Positions 14,029 to 18,238 of a DNA stretch of 42,920 bases are shown here, in pieces. Origin of the DNA: Lishizhenia tianjinensis (GTDB lineage: Bacteria; Bacteroidota; Bacteroidia; Flavobacteriales_D; Crocinitomicaceae). The translations under genes were made by a program, and so were the position numbers. Each line of letters starts with the position of its first letter. Position 1 is the stretch's first letter. The notes below the pieces were generated by a model that worked only from the letters and a program-made list of their open reading frames with translations, had not been told where the DNA came from and searched no databases. Location: the NCBI GenBank assembly GCA_945902115.1, contig CAMDLY010000019.1, forward strand, positions 1 to 42,920. Direction: 5' to 3'.

Positions 14029-14424
14029 TTACGAATTTAGTGCCATTAAACGCATTTTCATTTTTTCGGGAATCAATTGAGTACAATTATTAACGTTGTT
14101 GAAGCTAACCATAACTGATTTTCCTTTGGTTACGACTCTTTCCTTCACAGTAATTAGGTAATTTAATGTGAAACTTTTACTTCCAATGTGTTCTACAGAG
14201 ATACTAACCTCAGGGGAGTCATGTAATAATATAGGTGAGAGGTAGTCAATTTCATTTCTTGCTAATAAAATTCCATCTGAATTCCAATCCCATTCTTCGC
14301 CAAGTATTTGCTTGAAATAATGTACACGAGCCATCTCGAAGTAGCTTAAATATACCGCGTTATTAACGTGTCCCATTACATCAATATCGGCAAAACGTAT
14401 TTGTATTTGTGCAGGACTTATCAT
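14029..14424 (-). CDS. 4-hydroxybenzoyl-CoA-type acyl-CoA thioesterase (hotdog fold)
   Basis: A 131-residue single hotdog domain. The family signature RFADIDVMGHVNNAVYLSYF covers residues 10-29, with Asp13/Asp15 in the catalytic region and the central helix HVNNAVYLSYFEMARVHYF. The strand SISVEHIGSKSFTLNYLI and a C-terminal strand ending in VSFNN complete the fold. It probably hydrolyses acyl-CoA esters in the cytosol. The substrate is not predictable. It overlaps the upstream dehydratase gene in ATGA, so translation is coupled, and the MORN-repeat gene follows. Confidence 0.88.
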   Translation of the reverse strand: MISPAQIQIRFADIDVMGHVNNAVYLSYFEMARVHYFKQILGEEWDWNSDGILLARNEIDYLSPILLHDSPEVSISVEHIGSKSFTLNYLITVKERVVTKGKSVMVSFNNVNNCTQLIPEKMKMRLMALNS

Positions 14425-16304
14425 AAATCTAATTTTTCGTATTCGGAGTTATTACTGATATATTCGGGAACGATTTTTTTCATCAATGCTACAATTTCCA
14501 TATTTTTCTGAGTAGGAATTAATGCGATTAAATCAGAAATATAATTCATGGAATCAACCCCGGCCATTCTCGTTTTTGCAATCAAAATTTTCTCATGATG
14601 CGTCGGTAATGTATTTTCTTCATTCGCCAATAGCTCCTCGTAAAGTTTTTCACCAGGCCTGAGACCTGTATATTTAATTTCGATGTCTTTTCCTAATTCA
14701 AGATTACTCAGTGTAATCATTTTCTTTGCAAGCTCAATAATTTTGATAGGTTCTCCCATCTCGAATACAAAAATCTCACCGCCATTTCCTATAGTTCCGG
14801 CTTCCATAACCAATTGACATGCCTCAGGAATGGTCATGAAAAATCTAGTTATGCGTTCATCGGTTACAGTAATTGGACCTCCGTTTTTGATTTGTTTTTC
14901 AAATAATGGAATTACCGAGCCATTTGATCCTAGCACGTTGCCAAATCTGGTAGTAATAAATTTTGTATTGCTGCTATTGTTTATAAATTGGGTATACATT
15001 TCAGCAATTCGTTTTGAAGCCCCCATAACATTCGTGGGGTTAACGGCTTTATCCGTAGAGATCATTACAAATTTCCCAACGCCACAAGCGTTGGCTAGGT
15101 CTGTAAGGATTTTTGTGCCTTTTATGTTATTCAATACCGCCTCGGCCGGGTTAAGTTCCATCATGGGGACGTGTTTGTAAGCAGCGGCATGAAAGATTAC
15201 ATCAAATGAAAATGCGTGAAAAAGCTTATGCATACGCTCTTCGTTGCAAATATCACCTACTACGATTTCATAATTCAACTTTGGATACGATTCTTTTAAC
15301 TCATGTTGTATATCATAGAGCGGAGATTCTGCTTGATCCAAAAGAATTAATAGTCTTGGATTAAAGGTTGCGATTTCTCTGCACAGTCCCGAACCAATTG
15401 AACCAGCTGCGCCACTTACGAGTATAGTTTTTCCTTCGAGATTAGCTTTGATTTCGTCAATACTCAACTTTATAGTTGCCCGGCCTAATAATTCTTCAAT
15501 ATTAATTTGTGTGATTTGCTTTGAGCTAAAACCTCCGTTAATCCAGCTTTTTGCATGGGGAACTTTTTTTATGGAAATTCCGTGGTCAAGGCAAATATTT
15601 GCTATTTCACGTTGTCGATTTACCTGTAATTTTTGAACAGCAATAATGCATGATTTCACATTATACTGGGATTTTAATTTTTGAAGGTCATCCAATTTAT
15701 ATACTTTTCGACCTTCAATTCTGTTTCCGACTAATTTGTTGTTGTCATCAATAAAAGCAACAACGACTTGGTTGTTTTTGGTATCTTGTTCAATAGTTTT
15801 TTTGGTAATTAAACCTGAAATCCCTGCCCCAAAAATAACTACGGCTTCTTTTGCGTCTATATTTTTCTTCGATTCTAAGTAAGTTAATTTCACCACAAAA
15901 CGGCTTCCTACCATGAAGACAAAGCTTGCCATAAACTCCATAATCAAAACCGATGTTGGAAAAAGGTAGTATCCGTCGAACATAAAATACCGAACGAAGC
16001 CACCAATAAAAAACAACATTGAGATGGTCGATACGGCTATAAATATGCGTTTTAAGTCCTCGGTTGAAGTATGTCGTAACAATCCTTGATGGATTTTAAA
16101 TAAATAAAAAACAACAAATTTTATCAGGAAGAAGAGCCACAATGACTTTGATAATTGGTTCCACTCTTTTTCAATTGTTTCGTAATCCGCTGTCATGTCA
16201 AATCTGAGCAGGTAGGCAATACTGAGCGCTAGGGCTGCAATACCGAGATCAGCTACCAGAACTATCCAACGAGGGGTGCGAGACTTAAAAGAAAATATAG
16301 TCAT
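14421..16304 (-). CDS. Membrane-bound UDP-sugar 4,6-dehydratase (FlaA1/WbpM/CapD family)
   Basis: Inner-membrane enzyme of 627 residues that starts deoxy-amino-sugar synthesis for surface polysaccharides, usually on UDP-GlcNAc. Residues about 12-140 hold four membrane helices. Residues about 150-270 form a CoA-binding-like Rossmann domain (VIFGAGISG at 156-164). Residues about 288-575 form the short-chain dehydrogenase domain with GAAGSIGSG at 298-306. The catalytic motif is STDKAVNPTNVMGASKR (416-432), with Met427 in place of the Tyr of YxxxK, the SMK triad typical of this membrane subgroup. The first gene in an overlapping set with the thioesterase and MORN genes, it follows a small secreted protein by four bases. 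The exact sugar product is not known. Confidence 0.92.
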   Translation of the reverse strand: MTIFSFKSRTPRWIVLVADLGIAALALSIAYLLRFDMTADYETIEKEWNQLSKSLWLFFLIKFVVFYLFKIHQGLLRHTSTEDLKRIFIAVSTISMLFFIGGFVRYFMFDGYYLFPTSVLIMEFMASFVFMVGSRFVVKLTYLESKKNIDAKEAVVIFGAGISGLITKKTIEQDTKNNQVVVAFIDDNNKLVGNRIEGRKVYKLDDLQKLKSQYNVKSCIIAVQKLQVNRQREIANICLDHGISIKKVPHAKSWINGGFSSKQITQINIEELLGRATIKLSIDEIKANLEGKTILVSGAAGSIGSGLCREIATFNPRLLILLDQAESPLYDIQHELKESYPKLNYEIVVGDICNEERMHKLFHAFSFDVIFHAAAYKHVPMMELNPAEAVLNNIKGTKILTDLANACGVGKFVMISTDKAVNPTNVMGASKRIAEMYTQFINNSSNTKFITTRFGNVLGSNGSVIPLFEKQIKNGGPITVTDERITRFFMTIPEACQLVMEAGTIGNGGEIFVFEMGEPIKIIELAKKMITLSNLELGKDIEIKYTGLRPGEKLYEELLANEENTLPTHHEKILIAKTRMAGVDSMNYISDLIALIPTQKNMEIVALMKKIVPEYISNNSEYEKLDL

Positions 16305-16308
16305 TATC

Positions 16309-16713
16309 TTACTCTACGGTAAAAGCAGTCAATTGTAAATCAGATAAAATAGCAGCAATTCGTCTACTCTTATCTTCTTTAAAATATTTCAGTCCACCAC
16401 TTGTTCTATCCGTTAAATTACCTTTAATTATTTCACCGGGTTCAAGGTTGAAAGAAAATTGGTATTCTTTATTTCCGCAATTACTACAAATACCATCATA
16501 ATACATGTCAACATGAAAAGATATTTTTTTTTTGGTCTTAGTGCTATTCTCGATTTGAGCGATTTCAAATATCCATCCGAACTCGGTTGAATTTTTATCT
16601 CTGACCTCTATTGAATTGGTTATGATAATAACTCCACTCTTTTCAAATTTATGTTGTGAAAAAATAAAATTATGTGATGATAACAGTAAGAAAAGAAGAG
16701 CAAATGTTTTCAT
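16309..16713 (-). CDS. Small exported protein, unknown function (134 aa)
   Basis: A signal peptide (MKTFALLFLLLSSHNFIFSQ) is followed by about 115 residues with GVIIITNSIEVRDKN, a single CSNCGN motif and the C-terminal strand AAILSDLQLTAFTVE. No family recognised; it looks like a small beta-rich periplasmic protein. I start at the ATG at 16713. The in-frame codon at 16731 lies inside the promoter palindrome, and its translation would put MYKYNF before the signal peptide. It is the first gene of the minus-strand operon that continues with the FlaA1-type dehydratase. Confidence 0.7.
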   Translation of the reverse strand: MKTFALLFLLLSSHNFIFSQHKFEKSGVIIITNSIEVRDKNSTEFGWIFEIAQIENSTKTKKKISFHVDMYYDGICSNCGNKEYQFSFNLEPGEIIKGNLTDRTSGGLKYFKEDKSRRIAAILSDLQLTAFTVE

Positions 16714-16717
16714 GAAG

Positions 16718-16737
16718 TTATATTTGTACAAATATAA
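16718..16737. promoter_or_regulatory. 20-bp perfect palindrome with a -7 box on each strand
   Basis: TTATATTTGTACAAATATAA reads identically on both strands and fills the middle of the 51-base gap between two divergent genes. It contains TATATTTG, an exact TAnnTTTG, at 16719-16726 on the plus strand and, by symmetry, at 16729-16736 on the minus strand. The predicted starts give leaders of about 34 bases to the CYTH gene (16765) and about 11 bases to the small exported protein (16713). No TTG was seen at -33 on either strand. It could also be an operator for a dimeric repressor. Confidence 0.6.
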
Positions 16738-16764: not shown

Positions 16765-17217
16765 ATGTCAGTTGAAATCGAAAGGAAGTATCTAGTAAAT
16801 AATGAATTAATCCCATCGTTAGAAGGCTTCAAAAGTGATATCATCGTGCAGGGGTATTTATCATCGATTCCAGAGTTGACGATTAGACTAAGACTTAAAA
16901 ACGAAAGCGCATTTTTAACTTTTAAAGGTAAAACAGAAGGAATAAAAAGGCAGGAATTGGAAATTCCAATCGATAGTGCATTTGCGCATAAGTTTATTCA
17001 ATCTTTTGATATTTTAGTCCTAAGAAAGAAAAGATACTATATCCCGCACGGCCACTTAACGATTGAATTGGATGTTTTTGAAGGAAAATTAGACGGATTA
17101 ATTCTCGCGGAAGTAGAGCTAGCACATGAGGACGAGCAATTCAGTTTACCCGAATGGTTTGCGCAAGAGGTGAGTTATGATCCAGCATATTATAACGTAA
17201 ATCTAATCCGACGTTAA
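16765..17217 (+). CDS. CYTH domain protein (inorganic triphosphatase-like)
   Basis: A compact 150-residue CYTH/TTM tunnel protein. The signature ExExK is Glu4-x-Glu6-x-Lys8 (EIERKYLV). It is followed by the tunnel strands TIRLRLKNESAFLTFKGK, RQELEIPI, LTIELDVFEG and LILAEVELAHEDE, which hold the charged residues that bind triphosphate and divalent metal. Small bacterial proteins of this type usually hydrolyse tripolyphosphate or other organic triphosphates. Adenylate cyclase activity is rare and not implied. It stands alone on the plus strand, driven by the palindromic promoter, and its TAA stop overlaps the stop of the convergent gene within TTAA. Confidence 0.88.
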   Translation: MSVEIERKYLVNNELIPSLEGFKSDIIVQGYLSSIPELTIRLRLKNESAFLTFKGKTEGIKRQELEIPIDSAFAHKFIQSFDILVLRKKRYYIPHGHLTIELDVFEGKLDGLILAEVELAHEDEQFSLPEWFAQEVSYDPAYYNVNLIRR

Positions 17218-17546
17218 ATACTCTCTCGGCTTAAATCTTTCGCTAAAAGGTCATAAACAAATGACCCGAATTCAGTTGTGAAATATTCTTTGAAAGCATC
17301 CACATTTTCTATTTTTGGCCAGTCTTCATTATTTTGTGAAACGGGGTAGAATTCTTGTTGGCTAATTTTTTTGAAGTATTTTTCAAGAAGGGAGTCCTCC
17401 TCCCAAAATTCGTCCTCTATAAGGTAGCAGGAAGCCTCATTAATGGTATTGTTCGAAAAAATGGAATCTTCATTATGCGAATTCGCCCATTCGTTAAACT
17501 TATTAGTGGGGGTGGCGAGTATAAAACCTCTATTTACTAGCTTCAT
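17214..17546 (-). CDS. Conserved-looking hypothetical protein (110 aa)
   Basis: I do not recognise this family. It begins MKLVNRGFILATPTNKFNEW, is acidic (SCYLIEDEFWEEDSLLEKYF) and ends in a helix-like FVYDLLAKDLSRES. There is no signal peptide, membrane segment or Cys pair, so it is probably cytoplasmic. The start overlaps the end of the upstream lipoprotein gene by 17 bases, which suggests coupling. The stop overlaps that of the CYTH gene by four bases. The spacing supports a real gene rather than a chance frame. Confidence 0.65.
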   Translation of the reverse strand: MKLVNRGFILATPTNKFNEWANSHNEDSIFSNNTINEASCYLIEDEFWEEDSLLEKYFKKISQQEFYPVSQNNEDWPKIENVDAFKEYFTTEFGSFVYDLLAKDLSRESI

Positions 17547-18159
17547 TTTGACTCTTTATTAATTTATCTTTTTCAAAAGTATACCAAATAGTTTCTTTTC
17601 GATTACTTTTCATGAAGTAAATCAACCTTTCATTTTTTGAGAAAAAACGAAAAATTCTTAAAGCCTTTGTTTCATCTAAAGGGTATGATGATGTTATGGT
17701 CTGAAAGTGTTTTTCTGTCAATATAAAAATAGAATTCTTTTTACTTAACGATAGCGGACTTCCCACTTTACTCAGCTTAACCTCATCAAGCCAATTGAAA
17801 AAAGCATTTTTCCCTTCACTGGAGTCACTGAAAAAATGAATTGATAATTCAATTTGAGGTTTAGTAAGGTGTTTAAAAGTCATCTGCAAGGAACTATCAT
17901 TCGCAAATCGATCTAAAAATTTTTTATTTTTCTGGATACCTGAAACGAAAATATCAAGATTTATTGAGTCAGAAGTGAGTGATTCATTTAGCAAGGCTGT
18001 GTCAATATTAAACTGATTGACTTTTTTGGAAGTAAATGAAATGGTATCTGTTTTTTCCTCTTTATTGATAACAGAACTCCCCGGTAATACCTCTCTATCT
18101 TTTTCTTGACTGCAAGATAGAGTAATGAAAAAGACAAACGTTAAGTATAAGAATCTCAT
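17530..18159 (-). CDS. Lipoprotein of unknown function (209 aa)
   Basis: The start MRFLYLTFVFFITLSCSQ gives a lipoprotein signal with the lipidation Cys at residue 16. The mature part is Ser/Lys-rich with no recognised domain; notable segments are SINLDIFVSGIQKNKKFL, QIELSIHFFSDSSEGKNAFFNW and the C-terminal LIYFMKSNRKETIWYTFEKD. It is likely anchored in the inner or outer membrane facing the periplasm. It is divergent from the next lipoprotein gene (18239) and overlaps the following 110-residue gene. A near-consensus -7 element (TAATTTCG, minus strand, 18171-18164) lies a few bases before the ATG. Confidence 0.7.
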   Translation of the reverse strand: MRFLYLTFVFFITLSCSQEKDREVLPGSSVINKEEKTDTISFTSKKVNQFNIDTALLNESLTSDSINLDIFVSGIQKNKKFLDRFANDSSLQMTFKHLTKPQIELSIHFFSDSSEGKNAFFNWLDEVKLSKVGSPLSLSKKNSIFILTEKHFQTITSSYPLDETKALRIFRFFSKNERLIYFMKSNRKETIWYTFEKDKLIKSQNEASK

Positions 18160-18214
18160 GCTTCGAAATTAGGTTTTTTAACACGATTTTTAAGCCACCA
18201 AGGGCTTTTATTCG

Positions 18215-18222
18215 TAATTTTG
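18215..18222 (+). promoter_or_regulatory. Predicted -7 box for the 18239-23520 gene cluster
   Basis: TAATTTTG is an exact match to TAnnTTTG and lies 16 bases before the ATG at 18239, giving a predicted leader of about 13 bases. No TTG at the expected -33 distance was found. Confidence 0.5.
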
Positions 18223-18238
18223 TGAAAAAATATTTAAT

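Follow-up and report, generated by a model that had tools for sequence, protein, structure and literature searches.

Bidirectional promoters in bacteria reportedly go back to a founding paper of 2021. In Escherichia coli and Salmonella, where they have been characterized by Warman, Grainger and co-workers, a short, pseudo-symmetric element recruits RNA polymerase in either orientation (PMC12825309; PMC10268837), and the defining feature is a pair of transcription starts on opposite strands that lie 7-25 bp apart (PMC10268837). According to the available parts of these reports, the element in E. coli is the -10 hexamer TATAAT, which is near-symmetric and is shared by both directions (PMC12825309; PMC10268837). 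Opposite starts in E. coli are most often 18 bp apart, with 10 and 23 bp also common, and steric constraints stop two polymerases from binding simultaneously in opposite orientations (PMC12825309). On the Salmonella chromosome, bidirectional promoters are strongly biased to the gaps between divergent genes, where 24% of those of E. coli are found (PMC12825309; PMC10268837). The accessible text of the E. coli work further describes five tested bidirectional promoters whose two directions competed little while activity was basal; strong activation of one direction repressed the RNA made in the other (PMC12825309).

Promoters of the primary sigma factor of Bacteroidota (sigma-ABfr) are built on a different element. 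In F. johnsoniae the box TAHHTTTG occupies positions -12 to -5 and transcription starts mostly 4-5 nt after it (PMC6847099), and in F. psychrophilum a box at the same position is followed by leaders with a median length of 24 nt (PMC9723704). The available parts of three sigma-ABfr promoter papers do not mention two facing boxes (PMC6847099; PMC9723704; PMC7366714), and the word "bidirectional" is absent from the main text of two of them (PMC9723704; PMC7366714). Among the titles listed by a literature search from which most subscription papers were missing, none deals with bidirectional promoters in Bacteroidota, although this speaks only weakly for their absence. Here we analyze a site between divergent genes of a member of this phylum that probably is such a promoter, assembled from two TAnnTTTG boxes.

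A Palindrome Between Divergent Genes

The window, that is, the whole stretch of 42,920 nucleotides that was analyzed, belongs to a genome of 2.52 Mb (G000). The initial annotation had described a perfect 20-bp palindrome in a 51-base gap between divergent genes, and its coordinates, symmetry and gap length all proved exact: TTATATTTGTACAAATATAA is its own reverse complement and lies in the 51 nt between the ATG of a short exported-protein gene (16713) and that of a gene for a CYTH-domain protein (16765) (Table 1). The exact TAnnTTTG -7 elements claimed for both strands are likewise present. They had been called offset by only a few bases; the two boxes in fact stand face to face with 2 bases (TA) between them, do not overlap and share no base. 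Applying the Flavobacterium position of the box, -12 to -5 (PMC9723704; PMC6847099, in their available parts), to the window sequence gives predicted transcript starts on opposite strands that are 7 bp apart.

Table 1. Features of the divergent gap and its flanking genes in window coordinates (both transcript starts are predicted).
Feature	Position	Strand	Details
Perfect 20-bp palindrome TTATATTTGTACAAATATAA	16718..16737		Centre between 16727 and 16728
-7 box TATATTTG	16719..16726	+	Exact TAnnTTTG, directed at CYTH gene
-7 box TATATTTG	16729..16736	-	Exact TAnnTTTG, directed at exported-protein gene
Predicted CYTH transcript start	16731	+	Base A; leader 34 nt
Predicted exported-protein transcript start	16724	-	Base A; leader 11 nt
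CYTH-domain protein gene	16765..17217	+	150 aa; Pfam CYTH, E 8.3e-11
Short exported-protein gene	16309..16713	-	134 aa counted from ATG
FlaA1-like nucleotide-sugar epimerase/dehydratase gene	14421..16304	-	627 aa; Pfam Polysacc_synt_2, E 2.1e-119

The FlaA1-like gene is the next gene downstream of the exported-protein gene, whose product has no Pfam or NCBIfam match. A mechanical list of open reading frames puts the exported-protein start at a TTG at 16731, within the palindrome. We have taken the ATG at 16713 as the putative start in preference to this TTG, because the translation from there opens with what by eye resembles a signal peptide (MKTFALLFLLLSS) and because two relatives that carry the same locus (G064 and G069, below) have an ATG at the same point.

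The palindrome is the longest perfect one of the window, followed by one of 14 bp, and a first-order Markov model predicts 0.07 palindromes of at least 20 bp per window. With up to 3 mismatches allowed, the palindrome occurs once in the window against 0.01 occurrences expected.

The surroundings of the gap offer some further observations. On the minus strand beyond the CYTH gene lie two small genes (17214-17546 and 17530-18159), neither of which matches Pfam or NCBIfam, and homologues of one or both adjoin the CYTH gene in most loci of the genus that keep the exported-protein/CYTH pair. A protein search of genome contigs with the FlaA1-like protein gave 80 homologues, two of which have a CYTH match in their locus; none of the 80 loci has a match to the exported protein.

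TAnnTTTG as a Promoter Element of the Genus

The weight of TAnnTTTG as a promoter box was assessed in 1.94 Mb of sequence taken from four genomes of the genus (G000, G014, G062, and G016), with genes taken as ATG open reading frames of at least 90 codons, the promoter zone set at -45 to -14 of 851 gene starts, and expected counts drawn from farther upstream. TAnnTTTG was found 216 times in this zone against 22 expected. TAnnTTTA followed at some distance (89 against 42), TAnnTTTC showed little promoter signal (26 against 22), and TAnnTTTT was found 44 times against 60 expected. Among the boxes of the genus, G is rare at both n positions.

Base frequencies over the same 851 upstream regions hold almost no signal for a -33 element. 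At the site itself, the -33 TTG/TTTG of Bacteroidota primary-sigma promoters is missing; by eye, no TTG stands 19-21 bp upstream of either box. We do not treat this as defining, because the element is not seen in the base frequencies of the genus and because it is described as much less evident in F. johnsoniae (PMC6847099, available parts). The site resembles sigma-ABfr promoters in its TAnnTTTG boxes, which stand at promoter distance from both genes, in the short leaders that they would give, and in a -33 element that in F. johnsoniae is weak or unidentified (PMC6847099; PMC9723704; PMC7366714, available parts).

Conservation of the Site at the CYTH Locus

A search of 86 genomes of the genus for the exported protein gave matches in 63. 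Of the relatives found to share the locus, G064 is the closest, with an exported protein 64%, a CYTH protein 59% and a FlaA1-like protein 82% identical to those of the window; the next closest, G069, has 53, 55, and 74%, respectively. The site in G064, TTATATTTGCACAAATATAA, is identical to the palindrome at 19 of 20 positions, retains both boxes and keeps the distance of 5 nt to the exported-protein ATG that is seen in the window. In G069, the site ATATATTTCAACAAATATAA is identical at 17 of 20 positions; its minus box is intact, and its plus box, which points to CYTH, has become TATATTTC by a G-to-C change at the last base. The G069 CYTH box should therefore be weaker, given the slight promoter signal of TAnnTTTC in the genus. 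Outside the palindrome, the rest of the gap is identical at 19 of 32 positions in G064 and at 15 of 32 in G069.

To extend this comparison, 94 loci were reduced to 53 distinct exported-protein/CYTH gaps by collapsing identical gaps and dropping loci without the divergent pair. The symmetric site occurs in two of the 53, those of G000 and G064, and is missing from all 50 distinct gaps other than those of G000, G064, and G069. Of these 50, 39 measure 80-102 nt and have different layouts, and some of the shorter ones have probably been shortened by automatic choice of the start codon. The initial annotation had made conservation in related genomes a check on its reading, and the outcome is divided: the nearest relative found has kept the site and the next has kept half of it, but it is seen nowhere else among the 53 distinct gaps.

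This pattern bears on a reading in which only one promoter works, the minus box driving the exported-protein and FlaA1-like genes, the plus half being weak or present by chance, and CYTH being transcribed from elsewhere. Such a reading would account for a minus box that is kept in G000, G064, and G069 beside a plus box that is altered in G069. It would also explain why four homologues of the exported protein (L200-L203), whose 3.3-kb loci contain no CYTH match, have the minus box CAAATATA upstream. However, no further plus-strand TAnnTTT[GA] box exists in the 51-nt gap or within 25 nt on either side from which CYTH could be served, the plus box has been kept in G064 among much more diverged flanks, and the clustering of predicted starts at 7-8 bp described below would be unexpected if the second box were accidental. 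We consider a single working promoter unlikely.

Many of the more distant relatives have something else in place of the facing TAnnTTTG boxes. In many of L204-L224, a pair GACGCAA ... GTTGCATC, roughly inverted (by eye), recurs in an exported-protein/CYTH gap of about 80-90 nt; this pair may be an operator or the elements of another promoter type. The G064 assembly also contains a second exported-protein/CYTH pair of this distant type (L363, G064:C248), with a CYTH protein 40% identical and a gap of 95 nt, which is either a paralogue or assembly contamination.

Facing Boxes Recur in Divergent Gaps of the Genus

The 1.94-Mb sample contains 200 divergent gaps of up to 400 nt, of which 91 have a plus box, 98 a minus box and 46 both. 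Predicted starts on opposite strands are offset by 7 bp in three pairs, by 8 bp in four and by 1 bp in one, and no offset from 9 to 29 bp occurs among the 200 gaps; the remaining offsets between -30 and 40 are represented by one pair each (-30, -21, -11, -10, -6, 30, 38, and 40). Eight gaps have an offset of 1-10 bp against 1.4 expected, a number reached in 0 of 5000 random redraws of the leaders, with a small bias in favour because the redraw uses one pair per gap and the observed count any pair. Over offsets of 1-40 bp the same 200 gaps show no excess (10 against 8.0 expected), and the effect is therefore specific to the tight arrangement.

Expressed as the spacer between two facing boxes, the 1.94 Mb hold eight sites with a spacer of 1-2 bp: seven in divergent gaps, one in a codirectional gap and none in coding sequence. 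Divergent gaps make up 42,004 of the 1,941,441 bases (2%), and within them the density at spacers 1-2 is 167 per Mb, about 20 times the 8 per Mb of two average other spacings. The seven divergent sites appear to represent six different loci, since two of them are the gap between genes for an acyl-CoA dehydrogenase and anmK in two genomes. In three of the seven gaps with an offset of 7-8 bp, one gene lies more than 180 nt from its predicted start under the ATG-only gene calls, and some members of the class may therefore not serve two mRNAs.

A second sample of 26 loci of the genus with spacer 1-2, limited to one per genome and with permissive calling of open reading frames, placed 10 in divergent gaps, 12 in called coding sequence, three in codirectional gaps and one at a contig edge. 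At 10 of 26, divergent gaps still hold far more of the loci than their 2% of bases would predict, and the arrangement thus shares with bacterial bidirectional promoters the bias to gaps between divergent genes. Across the 86 genomes, spacers of 1-2 bp gave 400 matches (about 4.7 per genome) against 167 (about 1.9 per genome) for a reversed control, counts that are not independent because related genomes share sites; matches exceed the control in 70 genomes and fall below it in nine. Taken with the 12 of 26 loci in coding sequence, the control count means that chance must account for a good part of the matches across the genus. The symmetric two-way element had been called unusual, which holds in the sense that it is uncommon, but these numbers show that it is not unique.

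Could the site in the window itself be such a coincidence, with two boxes facing each other by chance in an AT-rich gap? The gap is short and AT-rich, boxes of either orientation are common in divergent gaps, and the control matches demonstrate that chance sites exist. Yet TANNTTTGNNCAAANNTA occurs once in the window where 0.03 such sites are expected, both boxes have been kept in G064, and the spacer of 1-2 bp recurs in divergent gaps. We regard coincidence as very improbable.

Two facing-box sites were also noted about 1 kb from a CYTH gene (G008:C24:204117-204134 and G014:C2:458843-458860), probably in the next divergent gap after it. The corresponding gap of the window, 18160-18238, has a plus box at 18215 and no minus box.

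The Acyl-CoA Dehydrogenase/anmK Gap

The divergent gap between acyl-CoA dehydrogenase and anmK, which in G000 contains facing boxes at C17:15982-15998 (L043), lends itself better to testing than the locus in the window. Matches were found in 78 of the 86 genomes, and the best 30 loci were compared. All 30 have the divergent pair and all 30 keep the box on the dehydrogenase side. Both exact boxes are present in 21, with a spacer of 1 bp in 10 and of 2 bp in 11, and the number rises to 26 of 30 if TTTA and spacers of 0-2 bp are allowed. If anmK of G000 starts at a GTG that lies in frame ahead of the called ATG, its leader would shrink from 64 to 22 nt. The uneven retention of the two boxes, 30 of 30 on one side and 21 of 30 on the other, parallels that at the CYTH locus and is a further point for a single working promoter. 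The spacer, on the other hand, varies while both boxes persist, which argues for two polymerase boxes and not for one rigid dimer site.

Operators of dimeric regulators between divergent genes are typically inverted repeats that overlap both promoters, and a rigid dimer site is usually intolerant of a change in its spacer. The initial annotation had offered such an operator as its alternative, with the palindrome bound by a dimeric regulator over both promoters so that one repressor would switch both genes. In favour of this, the window site is an inverted repeat over both predicted promoters, a perfect dyad of 20 bp that, with its self-complementary centre, looks like a dimer site, and no other part of the gap is as well kept in G064; most of this symmetry, though, would also follow from two facing boxes. 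Several observations set it apart from known operators of this kind. First, at up to 3 mismatches the 2.52-Mb genome holds the palindrome once, as it does the reversed control pattern, and no second copy that could be a further site of the same regulator; a regulator acting at this site alone would still be compatible with the sequence. Second, the palindrome is not kept as a unit, the dyad being broken in G069 where the minus box is intact and being absent from the other 50 gaps. Finally, at the acyl-CoA dehydrogenase/anmK gap the spacer is 1 or 2 bp with both boxes intact. An operator accordingly fits the site worse than a bidirectional promoter does, and we judge it improbable.

Other Geometries and Other Taxa

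Further arrangements of the same boxes were considered and set aside. Back-to-back boxes that share a TA (CAAAnnTAnnTTTG, starts 23 bp apart) gave 1204 matches against 836 for the control in the 86 genomes, but an offset of 23 bp was found in none of the 200 divergent gaps, and this layout is therefore not the one in use. A looser pattern, TAnnTTTG-N0-12-CAAAnnTA, was less enriched (1692 against 1056 in the 86 genomes; 23 against 12 in the window genome). Its loci fell into divergent, coding and codirectional positions in numbers of 11, 8, and 11 in a first set of 30 and of 6, 7, and 2 in a second set of 15. TAnnTTTG-N20-CAAAnnTA has the wrong geometry.

Outside the genus the picture of the facing-box class is mixed. 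Offsets of 7-8 bp occur in none of 62 divergent gaps from 80 other Bacteroidota loci, a few of which may belong to the genus; two of these gaps have an offset of 5 bp and one an offset of 23 bp. In 44 other genomes of the family, matches show little excess over the control (182 against 161), although three genomes of one genus among them have 35 against 11. Other families of the order, represented by 133 genomes, show a moderate excess (275 against 188), and the largest of those families shows none (59 against 55 in 65 genomes).

A Candidate Two-Way Promoter

We think it likely that the site is a bidirectional promoter for the primary sigma factor of the phylum, with starts placed by prediction. 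Four lines of evidence point this way: TAnnTTTG has a strong positional signal in the genus, the two boxes predict a leader of 34 nt for CYTH and one of 11 nt for the exported-protein gene, both boxes are kept in G064, and the same geometry recurs in divergent gaps. The CYTH box altered in G069 and the presence of the symmetric site in only two of 53 gaps count against it. The two-way -7 promoter proposed in the initial annotation has thus gained on position, leaders, nearest relative and recurrence and lost some ground with the plus box of G069; it is, from the sequence comparisons made here, the best supported reading.

At such a promoter, a polymerase facing CYTH would melt the DNA from about -11 to +2 and begin transcription at 16731, and one bound the other way round would melt nearly the same bases and begin at 16724, toward the exported-protein and FlaA1-like genes. 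We infer that both boxes and both starts are used in the cell and that a bound polymerase would sterically exclude the other at any moment. Competition between CYTH and the exported-protein/FlaA1-like genes, or a fixed ratio between them, is possible and is not implied by the symmetry, since competition at the E. coli promoters is described as slight at basal activity (PMC12825309, available parts).

Compared with the bidirectional promoters of E. coli and Salmonella, the site has in common a symmetric core element readable on both strands, the bias of its geometry to divergent gaps and, presumably, mutually exclusive binding. It differs in consisting of two complete asymmetric TAnnTTTG boxes that share no base, in contrast to the single shared TATAAT, and in having predicted starts 7-8 bp apart, in contrast to mapped starts that in E. 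coli are mostly 18 bp apart. Beyond this one site, we see about an even chance that the genus has a small class of bidirectional promoters in which two complete, non-palindromic -7 boxes face each other across a fixed 1-2 bp. Both genes of a pair would be served by a single polymerase-sized bubble, with predicted starts 7-8 bp apart. The build, two whole asymmetric boxes facing at 1-2 bp, would then be new, whereas the function would match that of known bidirectional promoters.

Bidirectional promoters have so far been explained by the near-symmetry of TATAAT, and the TAnnTTTG box of Bacteroidota is asymmetric. In this phylum it can therefore be tested cleanly whether a two-way promoter depends on the symmetry of an element as such or can be rebuilt from two whole boxes that face each other. 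If true, the arrangement would show how a sigma factor can have two-way promoters even though its box lacks the symmetry that the shared-element design of E. coli requires, and it would form a minimal either/or switch that needs no regulator. For this locus, the prediction is that the CYTH gene and the exported-protein/FlaA1-like genes share one promoter site, and, if the class is confirmed, each genome would have a few divergent gene pairs in which a start toward one gene precludes a start toward its partner.
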